NCBI GenBank assembly: GCA_017478225.1
Contig: JAFVDX010000009.1
Span: forward strand, 124,001 to 188,000
Source of the DNA: Paludibacteraceae bacterium
GTDB lineage: Bacteria > Bacteroidota > Bacteroidia > Bacteroidales > Paludibacteraceae
Length of the DNA: 64,000 bases
Reading direction: 5' to 3'
Below, one piece after another: positions 2,421 to 8,702 of this stretch. A program made the translations under genes and the position numbers. The notes beneath the pieces are model-generated. The model made no database searches and had not been told where the DNA came from. It worked only from the letters and a program-made list of their open reading frames with translations. Position 1 is the first letter of the stretch. The number at the start of each line of letters is the position of its first letter.

Positions 2421-3905
2421 ATGAGAAAACATTTACTTCTTTTACTCACAATATTGTCGGGTATTGGTGGATTGCAGCGTATATATGCAGAAGAAGAGAT
2501 ATATGCTGTGTTGAGCAGTGATAGCAAGACTATGACATTGTATTACGATGAACTGCGTGAAGCGCGAAATGGTGCAACCGCATGGAATAGTTATGGTTCA
2601 ACCGTAGATTCTGTAGTGCTTGACAAATCCATGCAGGCTGCCCGTCCAACAAAAACGCAAACTTGGTTCTGGCGCTTTAGCAAACTGCATACAATTACTC
2701 ATTTAGATTACCTCAACACTTCTGCTGTGACTAATATGTATGCGATGTTCTCCGGCTGCAATGTACTTAAGGCGATTGATGTTACCCATTTTAATACTGA
2801 AAAAGTAACGACTATGTCCAGTATGTTCTCTGGTTGTTATGCTCTTGAGTCAATCAATATCAATTCTTTCGATATCTCAAATGTAGCGTCTCTGAATTCG
2901 ATGTTCAAGGATTGCGTCAATCTGAAAACCATCTATTGTGATGGCGATTGGAGTGGCAGTACGGCTGCTTCGTCTTCCGCTAATATGTTTGAGGGGTGTT
3001 CTTCGCTCGTTGGCGAAAAAGGAACATACTATGATGTCTATAATGAAAAAGATGCTACTTATGCTCACCCTGATGGCGGTGCATCTAACCCGGGATACTT
3101 CACTTCTGTTACGAAGATTTATACCGAGTTTGTTGAATCTACAAACACTCTAACATACTACTATGATGATAAAATGTCGTCCAGAAAGGGAATAACGGAA
3201 ATTTACGACCCAAATAGTAATAACCTGCGTTTTACTAATTATAACGAGGAAATCGAAATAGCAGTCATTGACAAATCGATGAAAAAGGCACAACTAACTT
3301 CGACGCGGAATATGTTCTTCGGGGGGTATATAAATAATGCATTGAAGAAACTTACACACATAGTGGGCCTAAGCAATCTCAATACTTCTAATGTGACCGA
3401 TATGCGATATATGTTTGCAATGTGCATGTCTTTGGAAACCATTGACCTTAGTGAGTTCAACACTGCCAATGTAACACAAATGAACGGTATGTTCGGCGAG
3501 TGTAAGTTGTTAACATCTCTTGGTCTAAATTCATTTAATATCAGCAAGGTACAAGATATGAGCAGACTATTTTTTAATTGTATCTCGCTGGCAACTATTT
3601 ATTGCGATAGCGATTGGTATTCTATTAACCCTCAGGCGGCGTGTGAAATGATGTTTAGCGGTTGCACACAATTGGAAGGTGAAAAGGGTACTGAATGTGA
3701 TGGAACGAATAACATAGGCATCACTTATGCACGTCCTGACGATCCTGAGAATGGCAAACCCGGCTATTTCACCAAAAAAACGGCTACGACTATTGACAAT
3801 GTACAAAAAGAAGAGATACAAGCAACCAAGGTTATTAAGAATGGACAAATTCACATCCTCGTTGGTGATAAGACCTACGATGCACGCGGAGTAGAGGTGA
3901 AGTAA
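2421..3905 (+). CDS. BspA-like DUF285 surface protein
   Basis: A 494-residue secreted protein. Residues 1-23 form a signal peptide (basic start, LLLLLTIL core, cut near YAEEE). The body is built of DUF285 (PF03382) repeats with the signature 'NTSxVTNMxxMFxGCxxL'. It consists of two parallel copies of about 200 residues: each opens with 'TLYYDE' or 'TYYYDD', has 'DKSMxxA', runs through three or four repeats and ends in 'PGYFT'. The last 40 residues ('ATKVIKNGQIHILVGDKTY') are the short tail common on secreted Bacteroidales proteins. DUF285 proteins are surface-exposed, often linked to adhesion; the ligand here is unknown. It has no clear promoter of its own and sits directly behind the dead ATPase gene. 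Confidence 0.8.
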   Translation: MRKHLLLLLTILSGIGGLQRIYAEEEIYAVLSSDSKTMTLYYDELREARNGATAWNSYGSTVDSVVLDKSMQAARPTKTQTWFWRFSKLHTITHLDYLNTSAVTNMYAMFSGCNVLKAIDVTHFNTEKVTTMSSMFSGCYALESININSFDISNVASLNSMFKDCVNLKTIYCDGDWSGSTAASSSANMFEGCSSLVGEKGTYYDVYNEKDATYAHPDGGASNPGYFTSVTKIYTEFVESTNTLTYYYDDKMSSRKGITEIYDPNSNNLRFTNYNEEIEIAVIDKSMKKAQLTSTRNMFFGGYINNALKKLTHIVGLSNLNTSNVTDMRYMFAMCMSLETIDLSEFNTANVTQMNGMFGECKLLTSLGLNSFNISKVQDMSRLFFNCISLATIYCDSDWYSINPQAACEMMFSGCTQLEGEKGTECDGTNNIGITYARPDDPENGKPGYFTKKTATTIDNVQKEEIQATKVIKNGQIHILVGDKTYDARGVEVK

Positions 3906-4002
3906 TTTTTGGGATCATTTGGGATAATTTTTGACGTCAAAAAAAATTGTGTAATTTGTGTTATCTGTGAACAGATAATAAAAGTCTTGCGGTGTTCACT
4001 CG

Positions 4003-4104
4003 CTTCTATATAACAAATCTGTTATTACATGTTTTTGTTTTGGTTGCGGGCGAGGACCGGCAAGCCTACCGCGTTCCAAAAGACGGCTGTAAGGTTACAA
4101 AAAA
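4003..4104 (-). repeat. Copy A of a dispersed leader-like element
   Basis: Read on the minus strand, this stretch matches the leader of the cca gene (8967-9065). By eye, 67 of 75 aligned bases in the core agree, including 'GCAACCAAAACAAAAACA' and an ATAACA/TGTTAT hairpin. In copy A the -7 position reads TAACCTTACAG, a decayed form of TACTTTTGCAG in copy B. Six of the eight differences are transitions, and two of them keep pairing possible in a GYGG/YCGC helix, which suggests an RNA-level role. No gene follows on the minus strand. Confidence 0.6.
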
Positions 4105-4190
4105 CAAATGACTAAATAGTAAATGGTCAAATGGTAAATGAATCAATATACAAATTTTGATGCGTTTGCCGTGTGAAAGTTCGGTAATTA

Positions 4191-4221
4191 TTTGTACAAA
4201 TAAAAAATTGTTGTACCTTTG
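4191..4221 (+). promoter_or_regulatory. Promoter of the structured RNA
   Basis: TTTG (4191-4194), 19 bases, TACCTTTG (4214-4221): a near-perfect Bacteroidetes primary sigma promoter. Expected start of transcription about 4227-4230. Confidence 0.8.
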
Positions 4222-4227
4222 CGGTCG

Positions 4228-4564
4228 ATTACCACGCCGCGGAAAGTGCGGGAAGCAATCTGTACTTTTTGTAGGGCGGTGGGAAGACCTTTATAGGGTG
4301 GCGAAGTGTCGCAATGAGCCTGAAAGGTAACATAAATGGCGTTTACTGACGCTTTGTATTTTGACACACGAAAACTTAGCAACTTTTTTTGTCAGAATAG
4401 ATACAAGGTGACAATAGATGCCTATGGGTATGATTATAATACCTGCATTGTTGTATTTGACAATGCAGTAATCATATCGGCGTAGGTTTCATTGTTGTTT
4501 ATTTATTCTGACGGTATGCTAAGGCCTCGTGTGTAATGAGCAACAACGAGGTCTATGCTTTTTT
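4228..4564 (+). ncRNA. Unidentified structured RNA or attenuator leader
   Basis: About 335 bases between a strong promoter and an intrinsic terminator, with no supported reading frame. Helices seen: 4232-4238 with 4275-4282 (CCACGCC with GGC-G-GTGG); ACCTTT 4287-4292 with AAAGGT 4323-4328, enclosing GCGA/TCGC (4301-4304/4309-4312); GCGT/ACGC (4339-4342/4349-4352); and a long imperfect hairpin closed by TCAGAATA 4392-4399 and TATTCTGA 4504-4511, with ACAAT/ATTGT, CCTATG/CGTAGG, TATGATTA/TAATCATA and CTGCATTG/CAATGCAG inside. I do not recognise the family. RNase P, tmRNA and SRP signatures are absent. No TAnnTTTG promoter is visible between its terminator and the lipoprotein gene at 4641, so it may instead be a long regulated leader for that operon. 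Confidence 0.6.
4518..4564 (+). terminator. Intrinsic terminator or attenuator of the structured RNA
   Basis: GGCCTCGT (about 4523-4530) pairs with ACGAGGTC (about 4546-4553), extended imperfectly by GC/GC at 4518-4519 and 4557-4558, followed by six T (4559-4564). Confidence 0.75.
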
Positions 4565-4640
4565 ATGCTAAGCCTCAAACGATATGGAGGAAGTCGAAAA
4601 GCCATAAGTGAGTAGGCAAAACGAATTAGTTGTAACAGCA

Positions 4641-5372
4641 ATGAAAAAAGTTACATTAGTGGCTATCGCTCTTGTTTGTAGCGTAGCATTTACCGATTGT
4701 GCGGCAAAAAAGCCGGTTAAAAAAGTCAGTGAACCTGTCTCAGAGCAGAAAGTAGATCCAATGCAGGCAAAAATAGACAGCCTGAAAAAAGTTAAGGAAC
4801 TTCGCGAGTTGGAGCGTGCTATGGAGTTGGAGGATCTTAATCACCAGCAAGCGATGTCGGCTGCGGCTGCCAAAGGAACTGAAATTAGTATTCCATGTAT
4901 TGAGTCTTCGTTTGATGATGAAACATATTTCCGTGATTTAGGCATCGGAAAGGTAGCAGGAAATAACAAGCAAAGTGCTCGTTTGGATGCAGTAAATAAT
5001 GCCAAAGCGATGATTAAAGCCAGATTAGGAGAATTTGTGCAGGGTGTAACATCCAATTATTTTAATTCATACGCAGGCACCAAACCAAGTGATGATGTTC
5101 AGCGGAAGATGGAAAATAAGTTAAACGGAGTAGTTGAAAAGATGCTCAATGATGCAGACAAGGAGTGTGAAAAGAGTGTAGTTGATATTAAGGGGAACTT
5201 TGAATACTATTATGTAGTTCGTATTCCAAAAGGTGATTTGAAAAAGCAGATAACAGAGGCTCTTACATCTGATGAGAAATTAAACATAGATTTCAATGAA
5301 TCTCAGATGCAAAAATTCATGGATGAAAAGATGGAGCAAATGCTTGAGGCTAAGAAGAAAGCAGGCTATTAA
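4641..5372 (+). CDS. LPP20-like lipoprotein
   Basis: A lipoprotein of 243 residues. The ATG at 4641 is preferred over an upstream GTG (4608) because it places 'MKKVTLVAIALVCSVAF' as a signal sequence ending in the lipobox-like 'FTDC'. After a charged linker and a helical stretch (residues about 38-65) comes a domain with 'NNKQSARLDAVNNAKAMIKA', the D/N-A-rich helix typical of LPP20-like proteins, and 'YYYVVRIPKGDLKKQI'. The C-terminus is a charged helix. It is the first of four envelope genes (gaps of 5, 1 and 6 bases), which points to one operon. Its function is unknown; the paralogous neighbours suggest a shared envelope complex. Confidence 0.7.
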   Translation: MKKVTLVAIALVCSVAFTDCAAKKPVKKVSEPVSEQKVDPMQAKIDSLKKVKELRELERAMELEDLNHQQAMSAAAAKGTEISIPCIESSFDDETYFRDLGIGKVAGNNKQSARLDAVNNAKAMIKARLGEFVQGVTSNYFNSYAGTKPSDDVQRKMENKLNGVVEKMLNDADKECEKSVVDIKGNFEYYYVVRIPKGDLKKQITEALTSDEKLNIDFNESQMQKFMDEKMEQMLEAKKKAGY

Positions 5373-5377
5373 TTGAT

Positions 5378-5821
5378 ATGAGAACAAAACAAATACTTAC
5401 AGTCCTTATGCTATGTTGTGCACTGCTTTGCAGTGCGCAACAAGCAGCAGGCAATCGTCCTTATTGGATTCAAAACCGCCCTCAGACAGATAATAAAAGT
5501 ATGTATTACTATCGTGTAACGCAGGGTGAGGGTGCTAATTACGATAAGGCTTATGCTAATGCGTTTGCGAAAGCCATTTTAGAGAGTTCTTGGAAATTAG
5601 GAATAGAGGTTAATACATCTGACGATTTGCAAACTATAGAAAAGGGAGTGGTTGATAATATTTCCGTTGAGTCGTCTCGTATGGTTTTGCCACTTAATAA
5701 AGTTTGCGAATATATTGAACCTACTTCAGGAAAAATGGGTACACGCATTTATATATTGTGGCAAGTAGCCAAATATGGAAATAGAGCGCCAAATTTTGAT
5801 GAATTTACAAAATGTGAATGA
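5378..5821 (+). CDS. Exported LPP20-like protein
   Basis: A 147-residue protein with a signal peptide (MRTKQILTVLMLCCALLCSAQ, cut near Gln21). The mature part 'RPYWIQNRPQTDNKSMYYYRV' and the helix 'YDKAYANAFAKAILESSWKL' match the first half of the next gene product, as does the end 'ILWQVAKYGNRAPNFDEFTKC'. It is therefore a short paralogue, made of one LPP20-like domain without the membrane segments. It probably sits in the periplasm. Five bases follow the preceding stop, and its own stop is one base from the next ATG. Function unknown. Confidence 0.7.
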   Translation: MRTKQILTVLMLCCALLCSAQQAAGNRPYWIQNRPQTDNKSMYYYRVTQGEGANYDKAYANAFAKAILESSWKLGIEVNTSDDLQTIEKGVVDNISVESSRMVLPLNKVCEYIEPTSGKMGTRIYILWQVAKYGNRAPNFDEFTKCE

Positions 5822-5822
5822 T

Positions 5823-6755
5823 ATGAAGAGATACATTATTATTTTAATATCACTATATGTATGTAGTTTAGGCGTATTGAATGCTCAAAACAGTTCGTCG
5901 TATAGGTATGAGGGAAAGCCATTGCCTGATTGGATTCTTGGTCCGACGCCGGAGCCACATAATGATACATATTATTATAAAGTTTTTGATGGAGTTAGTC
6001 AAGACAGAGAGGAGGCACGCAATTTGGCTATCAAAAAAGCCTTTCAACAAGCGATGACATTTATTTCAACCACAGTTAATTCTGCAGATGTCTTTGCTGC
6101 TTTAGAGAGTGGAAAGGATTTGAATGTTATTTCAGAGACATTTAGTATTCCTATTTATTTTACTTGTGAGTGTTCAAAAAAATCGCCTGATGGTATGCAT
6201 TGGAATTATTGGATACTATGCCAAATTGCAGTTAGAGGCAATATAGTTCCTCAGTTTGATCTTCACTTTGTTGATTGTAAGACCAATGAGATATGGGATA
6301 AAAAAAAGGAAGAGTATAATAGAGGAATCAAAACTGCGAAAGTGAAATCGAATGCTCGATCACTTGTTGCTTCCACTTTTATTCCAGGTTTGGGTCAGAT
6401 GTTGAAAAAGCAAGGAGGTTCAGGTGTTGCGTTTCTGCTGAGTGAAGTAGTATTGTTTGGTGGTGGTACTGCTTGTTATTTTTTAGGCCAGGAACAGGTT
6501 AAAACGATGAAGGCAACCGGTACTACATACGAGCAATATGCTAATGCCAAAAGCATGAAGAACATATATGATATTGCCATGTACACTGCTTTTGGTGTAG
6601 GTGCAGCAGTGCATGTGGGAAATATGGTACATGCTTGGGTTGTGAAGGACAAGCATTTGAGCGAGGATGTAACCTTGGTGCCGGTTATAATTCCTACAAA
6701 CGAATATATCCAACCCTCGTACGCCTATGGTGCGGGACTAAAAATTAAATTCTAA
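5823..6755 (+). CDS. LPP20-like exported protein with membrane C-terminus
   Basis: Start chosen at ATG 5823 (310 residues), because 'MKRYIIILISLYVCSLGVLNAQ' is a clear signal peptide; a longer frame would overlap the previous gene. Residues about 22-155 repeat the domain of the upstream gene ('LPDWILGP', 'YYYKVFDGVSQDREEARNLA', 'ILCQIAVRGNIVPQFD'). Residues about 175-270 contain 'STFIPGLGQMLKKQGGSG' followed by hydrophobic helices, similar to the PGxGQ membrane motif of DUF5683/TM2-like proteins. It may anchor the set in a membrane. Function unknown; no homologue is named with confidence. Confidence 0.65.
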   Translation: MKRYIIILISLYVCSLGVLNAQNSSSYRYEGKPLPDWILGPTPEPHNDTYYYKVFDGVSQDREEARNLAIKKAFQQAMTFISTTVNSADVFAALESGKDLNVISETFSIPIYFTCECSKKSPDGMHWNYWILCQIAVRGNIVPQFDLHFVDCKTNEIWDKKKEEYNRGIKTAKVKSNARSLVASTFIPGLGQMLKKQGGSGVAFLLSEVVLFGGGTACYFLGQEQVKTMKATGTTYEQYANAKSMKNIYDIAMYTAFGVGAAVHVGNMVHAWVVKDKHLSEDVTLVPVIIPTNEYIQPSYAYGAGLKIKF

Positions 6756-6761
6756 ACAACA

Positions 6762-8702
6762 ATGAAAACGAGATTCGCATGGCTCGGTATTGTAGCCGCA
6801 TGTATTTTAGGTATAAGTACTTTTTTTGTCAGTTGTAAGGATGAACTGAACTCTATTGTAGATTATGTGGGTAAAGTTGTTTATGCCGGTACAACAAATC
6901 CCTTTGCCAATTTGGAGGTAAAAGTAACTAATGGTGAAAAGATTCATGTGCTGACTCATACGAATGAGAGCGGCAATTTTTCGCTTAAGGTGAAGGTTGG
7001 AGATATAGATGGCAGTTATTATGTTTTGGTAGGTGATTCATCTTGTGCAACAAAAAAGGTGGACCTTTCGGGTTTTGGTCAGACCCAAGTGGATTTAGGA
7101 ACGATTGAGATAGAAGGTCCCGGATTACCGAGTGTAACGACAGCCCCGATAACAGACATATCAGACGATAAGGCTAATTGTGGTGGGAATGTAACCTCGG
7201 ATGGTCGTTCAACCGTCAGTGCCCGTGGTGTGTGCTGGTCGAAAACGGAATATCCTACGACAAGCGACAGTCATACTATCAATGGTTCAGGCACGGGTGA
7301 GTTCAAGAGCCAAATAACGGGGTTGGAAGCGGGAGCAACTTATTATGTTAGAGCGTATGCAACTAATCGTATAGGAACAGCATACGGTGAACAACGAGTT
7401 ATGTTTTCTCTGACAGGTTTGCCACAAGTGACAACAGATACAATAAGCAGTATTTCAGCGACATCGGCGGTTTGTGGAGGAGAGGTGGCTGCAAATTCAG
7501 GGCATGCAATTACTGCGCGAGGAATTTGTTGGAGTGACAAGACCGCTACTCCCACTACTAATAATGATCATACAGAAGAAGTGGCTACAGTAGGACATTT
7601 TACATCGATGATGATAGGTCTGGAGCGCAATACCACTTATTATGTGCGCGCTTATGCTGTAAATGAAAAAGGTAGTAACTATGGAGAAACAAGGATATTC
7701 ACCACTTTGTCGGGTTTGCCTACGATAATTACTTCAGAGGTGATTGATATTAAAACTACGACTGCTTTAGGTGGAGGAAATGTTACGAGCAATGGTGGTT
7801 ATGTGATAACAGCACGAGGTGTATGCTGGAGTAGCGTTTCATCTACTCCAACTACAGAAGATAGCCATACAAACGAGGTGGCGGACAATGGTGTGTTTAG
7901 TAGTTTAATGACTGACTTGGAGGCAAATGCCACTTATTATGTAAGAGCGTATGCAACCAACGAGGTTGGAACGGCTTATGGAGAAAGTGTAATTTTTAAA
8001 ACAGGCAGTGGACTTCCGATAGTTGAAACCATTGATCCTGGAGAAAATATCACTTCCGGGTCGATTGGTGCTATGGGCAATGTAACAGATGATGGAGGAT
8101 ATGATATAATTGAACGCGGTTTTGTTTATAGCACACTTCCTTATCCTACATTAGGCAATGGAAACAAATTAGAAAGCGGGAAGGGAGTAGGCTATTTTTC
8201 TGCCAATATCACGGATATATTACCAACAATGTACACATATTATATTCGTGCTTATGCAACCAATATAAAAGGAACATCATACGGTGATCAAGTAGTAATC
8301 ACTCCGGAAAGGTCAGAATACTTAAGTTTGAAAACGATGAATTATAGTGGTTATACCTATAAGATAAAGTTCATAGGTTCAATGTCGTGGGAAGATGGTA
8401 AAAAAGCATGCGACAATATGACTTATGGTGGATATTCTGATTGGTTCATGCCTAATGAAGGAGAGGTGCAGGGTATATTAGAGGCATACGGTGTATGGGA
8501 TAAGTCTGTGACAAGTTCTTATTCGATATATGTACATAATGTAAGTGAATTATGGACGAGTAAAGAATCTGGCAGTTCTTATGCATATTACTATTATATC
8601 TACACAGGTTCATATAATAAATATTGGTCTTATGCAAACAGTAGTGCTAGTAAATCACACATTTATGGAGTCTTTGCTGTTCGTAAGTATCGGACGGAGT
8701 AA
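6762..8702 (+). CDS. Repeat lipoprotein with DUF1566-like C-terminus
   Basis: A 646-residue lipoprotein with the lipobox 'TFFVSC' (Cys about 25). Residues about 35-110 resemble a carboxypeptidase-regulatory-like beta domain ('NPFANLEVKVTNGEKIHVL', 'NESGNFSLKV'). Four tandem repeats of about 98 residues follow (nucleotides about 7122-8310), each with 'ARGVCWS', 'PTT', 'GLExxxTYYVRAYATNxxGTAYGE', a fibronectin-III-like module common in Bacteroidales. The last 125 residues fit DUF1566: 'SWEDGKKACDNMTYGGYSDW' then 'MPNEGEV'. It is probably displayed on the cell surface. It is the last gene of the operon, and a strong terminator follows. Confidence 0.75.
   Translation: MKTRFAWLGIVAACILGISTFFVSCKDELNSIVDYVGKVVYAGTTNPFANLEVKVTNGEKIHVLTHTNESGNFSLKVKVGDIDGSYYVLVGDSSCATKKVDLSGFGQTQVDLGTIEIEGPGLPSVTTAPITDISDDKANCGGNVTSDGRSTVSARGVCWSKTEYPTTSDSHTINGSGTGEFKSQITGLEAGATYYVRAYATNRIGTAYGEQRVMFSLTGLPQVTTDTISSISATSAVCGGEVAANSGHAITARGICWSDKTATPTTNNDHTEEVATVGHFTSMMIGLERNTTYYVRAYAVNEKGSNYGETRIFTTLSGLPTIITSEVIDIKTTTALGGGNVTSNGGYVITARGVCWSSVSSTPTTEDSHTNEVADNGVFSSLMTDLEANATYYVRAYATNEVGTAYGESVIFKTGSGLPIVETIDPGENITSGSIGAMGNVTDDGGYDIIERGFVYSTLPYPTLGNGNKLESGKGVGYFSANITDILPTMYTYYIRAYATNIKGTSYGDQVVITPERSEYLSLKTMNYSGYTYKIKFIGSMSWEDGKKACDNMTYGGYSDWFMPNEGEVQGILEAYGVWDKSVTSSYSIYVHNVSELWTSKESGSSYAYYYYIYTGSYNKYWSYANSSASKSHIYGVFAVRKYRTE
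7122..8310 (+). repeat. Four fibronectin-III-like coding repeats
   Basis: Units begin near 7122, 7416, 7712 and 8010 (period about 294-298 bases). The first three are close to each other; the fourth has drifted ('ERGFVYS' in place of 'ARGVCWS'). Confidence 0.75.

Follow-up and report, generated by a model that had tools for sequence, protein, structure and literature searches.

Positions 4338 to 4564 of the 64,000-nucleotide stretch of Paludibacteraceae DNA analysed here (the window) are read, with moderate confidence, as the conserved core shared by a family of 5'-leader RNAs that occurs in multiple copies in the Bacteroidia, likely a transcription attenuator in which the folded core would keep a long terminator stem, HL, from forming. 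This reading is built on features found in the sequence itself, namely a promoter, a leader position, a gene on the same strand, covarying helices HC, HA, HD and H3 together with a kiss between the loops of HA and HD, a strand shared by two stems, and a tract of six U residues (U6) abutting HL. The initial annotation had described an unrecognised structured RNA, and that description holds for a core that has no Rfam match and carries many compensatory changes. Its boundaries are better drawn as a core at 4338-4564 preceded by a 5' domain that starts near 4226 and is less conserved.

The RNA lies in a gene-free stretch of 735 bases (3906-4640), as originally noted, with a DUF285 ORF (2421-3905) on the left and the ATG at 4641 on the right; the program-made ORF list begins the downstream ORF at GTG 4608 instead. 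The left-hand neighbour is a protein of the BspA-like kind, and BspA-type LRR proteins are also seen behind copies of the RNA elsewhere. The promoter matches its earlier description, with TTTG at 4191-4194, a 19-nt spacer and TACCTTTG at 4214-4221, and a sigma-70 scan of the locus returned matches at shuffled level only. The features of the locus are given below; pairing percentages refer to the cells of alignment A1, which was made from 53 representatives sharing under 82% identity by excluding six that have long inserts, leaving 47.

4191-4221, + strand: Bacteroidetes-type promoter, TTTG-N19-TACCTTTG, from the sequence and the family-wide bipartite motif; predicted transcription start ~4226
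4226-4329, + strand: variable 5' domain of the leader; such a domain lies between promoter and core in copies inspected by eye
4330-4337, + strand: linker just 5' of the core, beginning ACATA, from the recurrence of ACAT
4338-4564, + strand: conserved RNA core of the family (covariance-model match 4338-4568; 197.2 bits and E 1.6e-54 with model R2, which was built from copies that include this one)
4339-4352, + strand: hairpin H0, GCGU/ACGC; 100% paired; of the four pairs, two show one-sided variation and two none
4353-4356 with 4404-4407, + strand: pseudoknot K; 97.3% paired, without double changes
4364-4371 (ACACACGA) with 4527-4534 (TCGTGTGT), + strand: closing helix HC, register of the window copy read from the fold
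4371-4387, + strand: hairpin HA (4371-4374/4384-4387) with loop CTTAGCAAC; 4/4 pairs with double changes, 97.9% paired
4375-4381, + strand: HB kissing strand CTTAGCA, partner TGCTAAG at 4517-4523; 98.2% paired
4391-4512, + strand: H3, base of the long hairpin (4391-4399/4504-4512); 9/11 pairs with double changes, 77.1% paired
4406-4502, + strand: hairpin H4 (H4a, H4b, H4c and, at the tip, a variable hairpin), putative antiterminator and core of the receptor; -36.8 kcal/mol when the apical part is included
4479-4558, + strand: stem HL, proposed terminator (HX 4480-4490/4548-4558, HT 4494-4503/4535-4544); strand 4479-4503 common with H4
4513-4527, + strand: hairpin HD (4513-4514/4526-4527), whose loop kisses HA; 99.4% paired, 3/4 pairs double-changed
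4522-4554, + strand: alternative local terminator hairpin T (4522-4529/4547-4554), overlapping the 3' strands of HB, HD and HC
4559-4564, + strand: U6 tract abutting HL, from the sequence
4584-4618, + strand: DUF805b RNA (RF02914), a previously described short motif placed after the terminator and before the start codon; 34.9 bits against a gathering score of 35.6, E 4.8e-8
4641-5372, + strand: downstream ORF from the ORF list, predicted lipoprotein or secreted protein (by eye)

When 4191-4564 was compared with 200 relatives by BLAST, the part 4334-4564 came up again in many genomes of the genus, the long matches sharing about 68-85% identity. A pattern taken from its most conserved part occurs in at least 119 stretches in named genomes. 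Among the matches listed, 79 of 80 titles are Paludibacteraceae, Bacteroidales, Colicola or Bacteroidia bins. The remaining one is a Holosporaceae bin, in which the copy sits on a short contig (L097, 5470 bases) that is perhaps a misbinned Bacteroidales contig. The 155 nhmmer hits yielded 121 distinct near-full-length copies. With E up to 1e-3, model R1 matches in all 26 sampled genus genomes, 1 to 21 times each, one genome having a match at E 2.0e-4 only; across the order, model R2 matches 95 of 295 genomes, representing 63 of 183 genera. With E up to 1e-4, R2 reaches 18 of 395 genomes of the phylum, 14 of them in other orders of the class, where the forms are short (about 160-190 nt). It should be noted that the E-values of both models are rough and that copy numbers are approximate, since the genome searches score 3 to 150 candidates per genome and some matches are possibly antisense echoes of the palindrome. 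Ten short forms were read out, one of which (L291) belongs to the same order. Six of the short forms (L284, L287-L289, L291 and L293) lie near HTH, excisionase-like or SusC-like genes by eye, and some are perhaps on mobile elements.

Covariance models find 13 copies in the source genome, although a BLAST search with the window copy detects no other near-full copy there, which argues that the copies are old. The suggestion of a housekeeping-size RNA is not supported at this copy number, the more so as the copies examined precede different genes. Multiplicity could also be the mark of mobile palindromic DNA, a MITE- or attC-like element with inverted repeats that mimic RNA helices. The core is near-palindromic (it gives weak antisense matches), part of the copies carry an imperfect terminal inverted repeat ACATA...TATGT, and some copies are on plasmids. 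The age of the copies speaks against such an element, as do an orientation fixed relative to gene and promoter, a 5' domain that, by eye, separates promoter and core in many copies, and kissing loops and pseudoknots that indicate a folded RNA. Further, among 156 loci only one (L154) holds two full copies, 2.2 kb apart. We find the mobile element hardly credible and retain the leader RNA. Copies are carried by plasmids of Phocaeicola dorei (E 1.1e-33), where strain CL06T03C03 has one on NZ_CP072250.1, and of Bacteroides finegoldii (2.6e-25); the PLSDB gene table, itself incomplete, shows no annotation under either match. To these blastn adds plasmids of Rhizosphaericola mali (80% over 73%, E 4e-21) and, weakly, Chryseobacterium shandongense (E 1e-3). 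Phage origin was rejected: the core pattern has no match in viral_contigs, and the window copy has no phage match, one relative giving a single partial match (38% of query). A retron or intron was likewise discarded, a scan of the 7 neighbouring ORFs having matched no reverse transcriptase family.

The position of the RNA relative to genes was counted in a set of 219 distinct copies. A loosely defined bipartite promoter lies upstream of the core in 157/217 copies, against 3.5 expected from shuffles, and downstream of it in 7/214 only. An ORF of at least 70 aa on the same strand begins within 300 nt after the core in 195 of 205 cases; before the core, 47 of 201 cases show an ORF directed away from it. 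Median distances are 70 nt from TTTG to the core among family copies and 80 nt from the core to the start codon (106 copies), and ACAT occurs within 22 nt upstream of the core in 97 of the 121 type I copies, as compared with 7 after one letter shuffle each. The leader half of the proposed 'ligand-sensing leader' is thus borne out by fixed orientation, shared promoter layout and the ORF and downstream-promoter counts, and ligand sensing by such a leader is plausible. The same counts bear on the idea of a stand-alone small RNA of ~335 nt that is ended by the terminator and acts in trans, the downstream gene being expressed separately. Being bracketed by a promoter and a terminator-like end suits such an RNA, but the same-strand ORF, the rarity of a bipartite promoter after the core and the 13 diverged copies in one genome make it improbable.

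The genes behind the leader are diverse. The ORF at 4641-5372 gave no match in a Pfam scan and is perhaps the first of an operon continuing with 5378-5821, 5775-6755 and 6762-8702. Among 178 distinct downstream proteins, 121 show a crude signal-peptide or lipobox signature, and Pfam, applied to 148 of the 178, returned 8 BspA-type LRR_5, 5 CsgG and 4 VWA_2 among 76 families. In the source genome, the 12 of 13 copies examined precede lipoprotein-like, CsgG-like, BspA-like, glycosyltransferase-like, zinc-ribbon and other proteins (by eye).

The region 4225-4564 folds at -124.7 kcal/mol, compared with -85.8 (sd 4.6) for 100 dinucleotide shuffles, none of which was as good (z = -8.4). The 16-base arm at 4461-4476 pairs as initially drawn, with 4443-4450 and 4429-4436 around a 6-base bulge at 4437-4442 (by eye and in the MFE fold), and the long hairpin placed at 4392-4511 turns out to be part of helices H3 and H4, supported across the 47 copies. 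Compensatory changes, the check suggested for the helices, are abundant in A1: 53 pairs in 9 helices are formed in 92.5% of cells, with double changes in 26 pairs and 265 cells. None of 500 shuffles was as good on any measure, and slid versions paired 37-47.5%. When mutual information was computed from A1 without a structure, 12 of the 15 top column pairs fell in named helices; the other three are not base pairs and resemble lineage signal.

The helices form a junction in which HC closes around hairpin HA, the long hairpin H3-H4 and hairpin HD. HC carries double changes in 5/5 counted pairs of A1 with 76.8% of cells paired, and in both HC and H3 about 23% of cells lack pairing. H4b and H4c are paired in 100% of A1 cells and mostly invariant, H4a shows no excess over shuffled partners, and HD of the window copy is short (2 bp). 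Diverged copies were collected in the model-fitted alignments A2 (71 copies), A3, A4 (19 copies, 2 of 21 rows removed) and A6 (10 short copies, 6 of 16 removed), antisense rows and three long forms having been dropped from A4 and A6. These alignments lean to the model; HB, K, HT and HX are absent from the models.

The loops of HA and HD are complementary and can kiss. In 72 copies aligned by R1, a model from which the kissing helix is absent, the kiss averages 7.4 contiguous bp, whereas shuffled partners average 4.2 and reach at most 4.8 in 500 trials. The kissing pairs are highly unlike one another, as in CTTCGCA/TGCGAAG, TCTGGTA/TACCAGA and CCTAGGAAA/TTTCCTAGG, and the loop has been rewritten into 16 six-base cores among the 72 copies, with a run below six in 3/72. 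Six-base cores were counted because the 34 kissing runs listed include different lengths of one loop. The kissing loops exceed shuffled partners in all three diverged sets and are kept in the ten short forms read out. Pseudoknot K is near invariant in A1; its run in A2 is 7.34 against a shuffled-partner maximum of 7.07, and it is not above control in A4 and A6.

A terminator had been claimed and is present by sequence, but the strongest stem is 4479-4558, which closes directly on U6 at 4559-4564 and exceeds the local hairpin. This stem, HL, has 24 pairs and one mismatch and runs into U6, its outermost pair being a G-U with the first U; its energy is -29.3 kcal/mol for 4479-4565 and -25.0 as a duplex. 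A simple terminator scanner did not list HL, being limited to loops of 3-8. The strand 4479-4503, GGCGUAGGUUUCAUUGUUGUUUAUU, is able to close H4 or to pair downstream as HL, so that, judged by base pairing, formation of the folded core and of the terminator would be mutually exclusive. When just the pairing strands are compared, leaving out the apical hairpin, HL reaches -25.0 and H4 -17.6 in the window copy, with medians of -26.5 and -21.7 over the 47 copies. As HL is the stronger, read-through would require the remainder of the fold. Among diverged long forms the two are of similar strength, the medians for H4 and HL being -28.2 vs -29.1 (A2) and -29.9 vs -33.8 (A4), and in the short forms HL is weaker than H4 (-23.2 vs -28.9). 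The 5' domain is a possible third partner for the switching strand: by eye, such domains (e.g. L013, L023) often contain CCTACGCCG-like letters, ACGCCG in the window copy, that are complementary to TCGGCGTAGG of the core.

The 21 counted pairs of HL form in 99.1% of A1 cells (slid controls 42-49%), with no excess of double changes in that alignment (187 of 500 shuffles as good). In A2, HT averages 10.3 bp against 8.0 with shuffled partners (maximum 8.5-8.7), with diverged examples such as TTGCTTATTCG/CGGATAAGCAA and CGTTGTCATTCT/AGAATGGCAATG, and HX 8.5 against 7.7 (maximum 8.0). In A4 and A6, which are smaller, neither leaves the range of shuffled partners, so covariation of HL beyond control is seen in only one tested set, A2. 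HL is at least 5 kcal/mol better than letter-shuffled versions in 71/71, 19/19 and 9/10 diverged copies (99/100 in total), and a U-rich tail, which is part of the model, follows in 71/71, 19/19 and 10/10. Hairpin T is paired in 90.6% of A1 cells and is weaker than -6 kcal/mol in 18/71, 2/19 and, among short copies, 9/10; it was dropped as a universal terminator for its weakness in the short forms. In some diverged types T overlaps HC by a few bases only (by eye).

The letters past the U tract are conserved as well (UaUgu in the model), which a plain terminator would not need. They suit a different account, in which the leader serves mRNA stability or translation, or is a self-cleaving ribozyme, with the U tract lying in a closing helix and not in a terminator; the short forms, 9/10 of which have no strong local hairpin T, can be cited for it too. 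A candidate for that closing helix, P0, would pair the linker ACATA (4330-4334) with TATG-like letters at 4565-4568 past the U tract. P0 rose above the letter-shuffled control in two sets and never above shuffled partners, giving no covariation beyond control, and was not counted. Each of the 100 diverged copies examined has a strong stem with a U-rich tail behind it, and the fold does not cover the ribosome site, given the median distance from core to start codon. This account has, in our judgement, only a small chance of being right, and attenuation is the reading carried forward.

Under attenuation, an RNA would be made from the promoter at 4191-4221, and the knotted core would hold strand 4479-4503 in H4. 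Once formed, HL (4479-4558 with U6) would stop RNA polymerase ahead of the downstream genes. If HC, the kissing loops, K and H4 were held together, HL could not form, nor could T, whose 5' arm lies in HB, HD and HC, and transcription would continue into 4641 and beyond. The attenuator is probably riboswitch-like and ON when folded. With the RNA just ahead of many different genes and predicted to decide read-through, these genes likely answer to a shared signal. More tentatively, one shared small signal molecule might stabilise the fold, and the 13 copies in the genome might then switch largely secreted or lipoprotein genes together. In its fullest form, which we put forward as a possibility falling short of even confidence, the family would be a novel class of riboswitch with a knot built around a kissing loop that can be rewritten, through which one signal molecule in gut Bacteroidales switches secreted and lipoprotein genes genome-wide, with 1-21 matches per genus genome and short forms in other Bacteroidia families.

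The signal might instead be delivered by an RNA-binding or antitermination protein that binds the core and chooses between H4 and HL. One leader before diverse genes fits a trans-acting regulator as well as a ligand, and Bacteroidales use antitermination proteins of the UpxY type. However, the fold resembles receptors in its size, its pseudoknots and the conservation of its loops and junctions, and we consider control by a protein unlikely, preferring an attenuator that is probably riboswitch-like.

If this reading is right, the Bacteroidales, which are abundant members of the mammalian gut microbiota, possess a frequent and uncatalogued leader RNA whose many copies before unlike genes point to a shared, as yet unnamed signal. 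It would also give a reading for many leaders now regarded as empty intergenic space. Several helices are defined well enough for compensatory tests and ligand searches.

The comparison with known RNAs begins with Rfam. No Rfam 15 family reaches gathering score over the core or anywhere in the window. A scan at gathering score of 20 related loci found two tRNAs beside one core only, and 11 further loci gave none. When 3900-4680 and one short form were scanned by E-value, the core drew no more than weak microRNA-type matches (E 4.1, 7.8 and 0.91). The earlier remark that RNase P, tmRNA and SRP signatures are lacking agrees with the absence of an Rfam match and with ARAGORN, which reported 0 tmRNA or tRNA in the window; 6S RNA likewise has no Rfam match there. 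A passage in PMC2864571 presents Bacteroidales-1, Bacteroid-trp, Flavo-1 and 6S-flavo as structured RNAs of Bacteroidetes, and none of these reaches gathering score in the window or in the 31 related loci. Among the papers listed by a literature search, largely without subscription journals and without the supplements of PMC8040213, none describes the knotted RNA, and a term search of PMC11109978 and PMC8632094 found no mention of Bacteroides and relatives. PMC8040213 reports thousands of unnamed RNA candidates in its supplements, so a fragment of the RNA may be in print unnamed.

DUF805b is an Rfam cis-regulatory motif that occurs in part of the same leaders. It has no match inside the core; its match in the window falls after the core, 0.7 bits under gathering. 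Its exact box, GAGTAGGC, lies within 400 nt downstream in 43/219 copies and upstream in 0. In the source genome, 4/5 best DUF805b matches follow a copy of the RNA, the fifth-ranked match being weak (19.9 bits), and the two may therefore act together. Unlike the core, DUF805b is a 35-nt motif past the terminator, and 176/219 copies are without an exact GAGTAGGC within 400 nt.

Leader RNAs of other kinds offer partial parallels. The epsC/EAR element (RF01735) is a processive antitermination RNA that lets polymerase pass terminators and, like the RNA described here, is a large structured leader. In contrast to it, the core has no Rfam match, and its proposed terminator lies inside the conserved element with strands common with the fold. 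The element is listed as epsC in Table 1 of PMC2864571.

The core differs from known transcription-attenuating riboswitches, among them ON types such as the adenine pbuE riboswitch, in having no Rfam match and in a junction with kissing hairpins and further pseudoknots. Control of many dissimilar surface genes is also seen in riboswitch classes with multiple copies, c-di-GMP riboswitches being one example. As in the attenuating riboswitches, there is a 5' leader between promoter and gene, a strand common to the predicted receptor and the proposed terminator, a U tract, and a conserved fold with compensatory changes.
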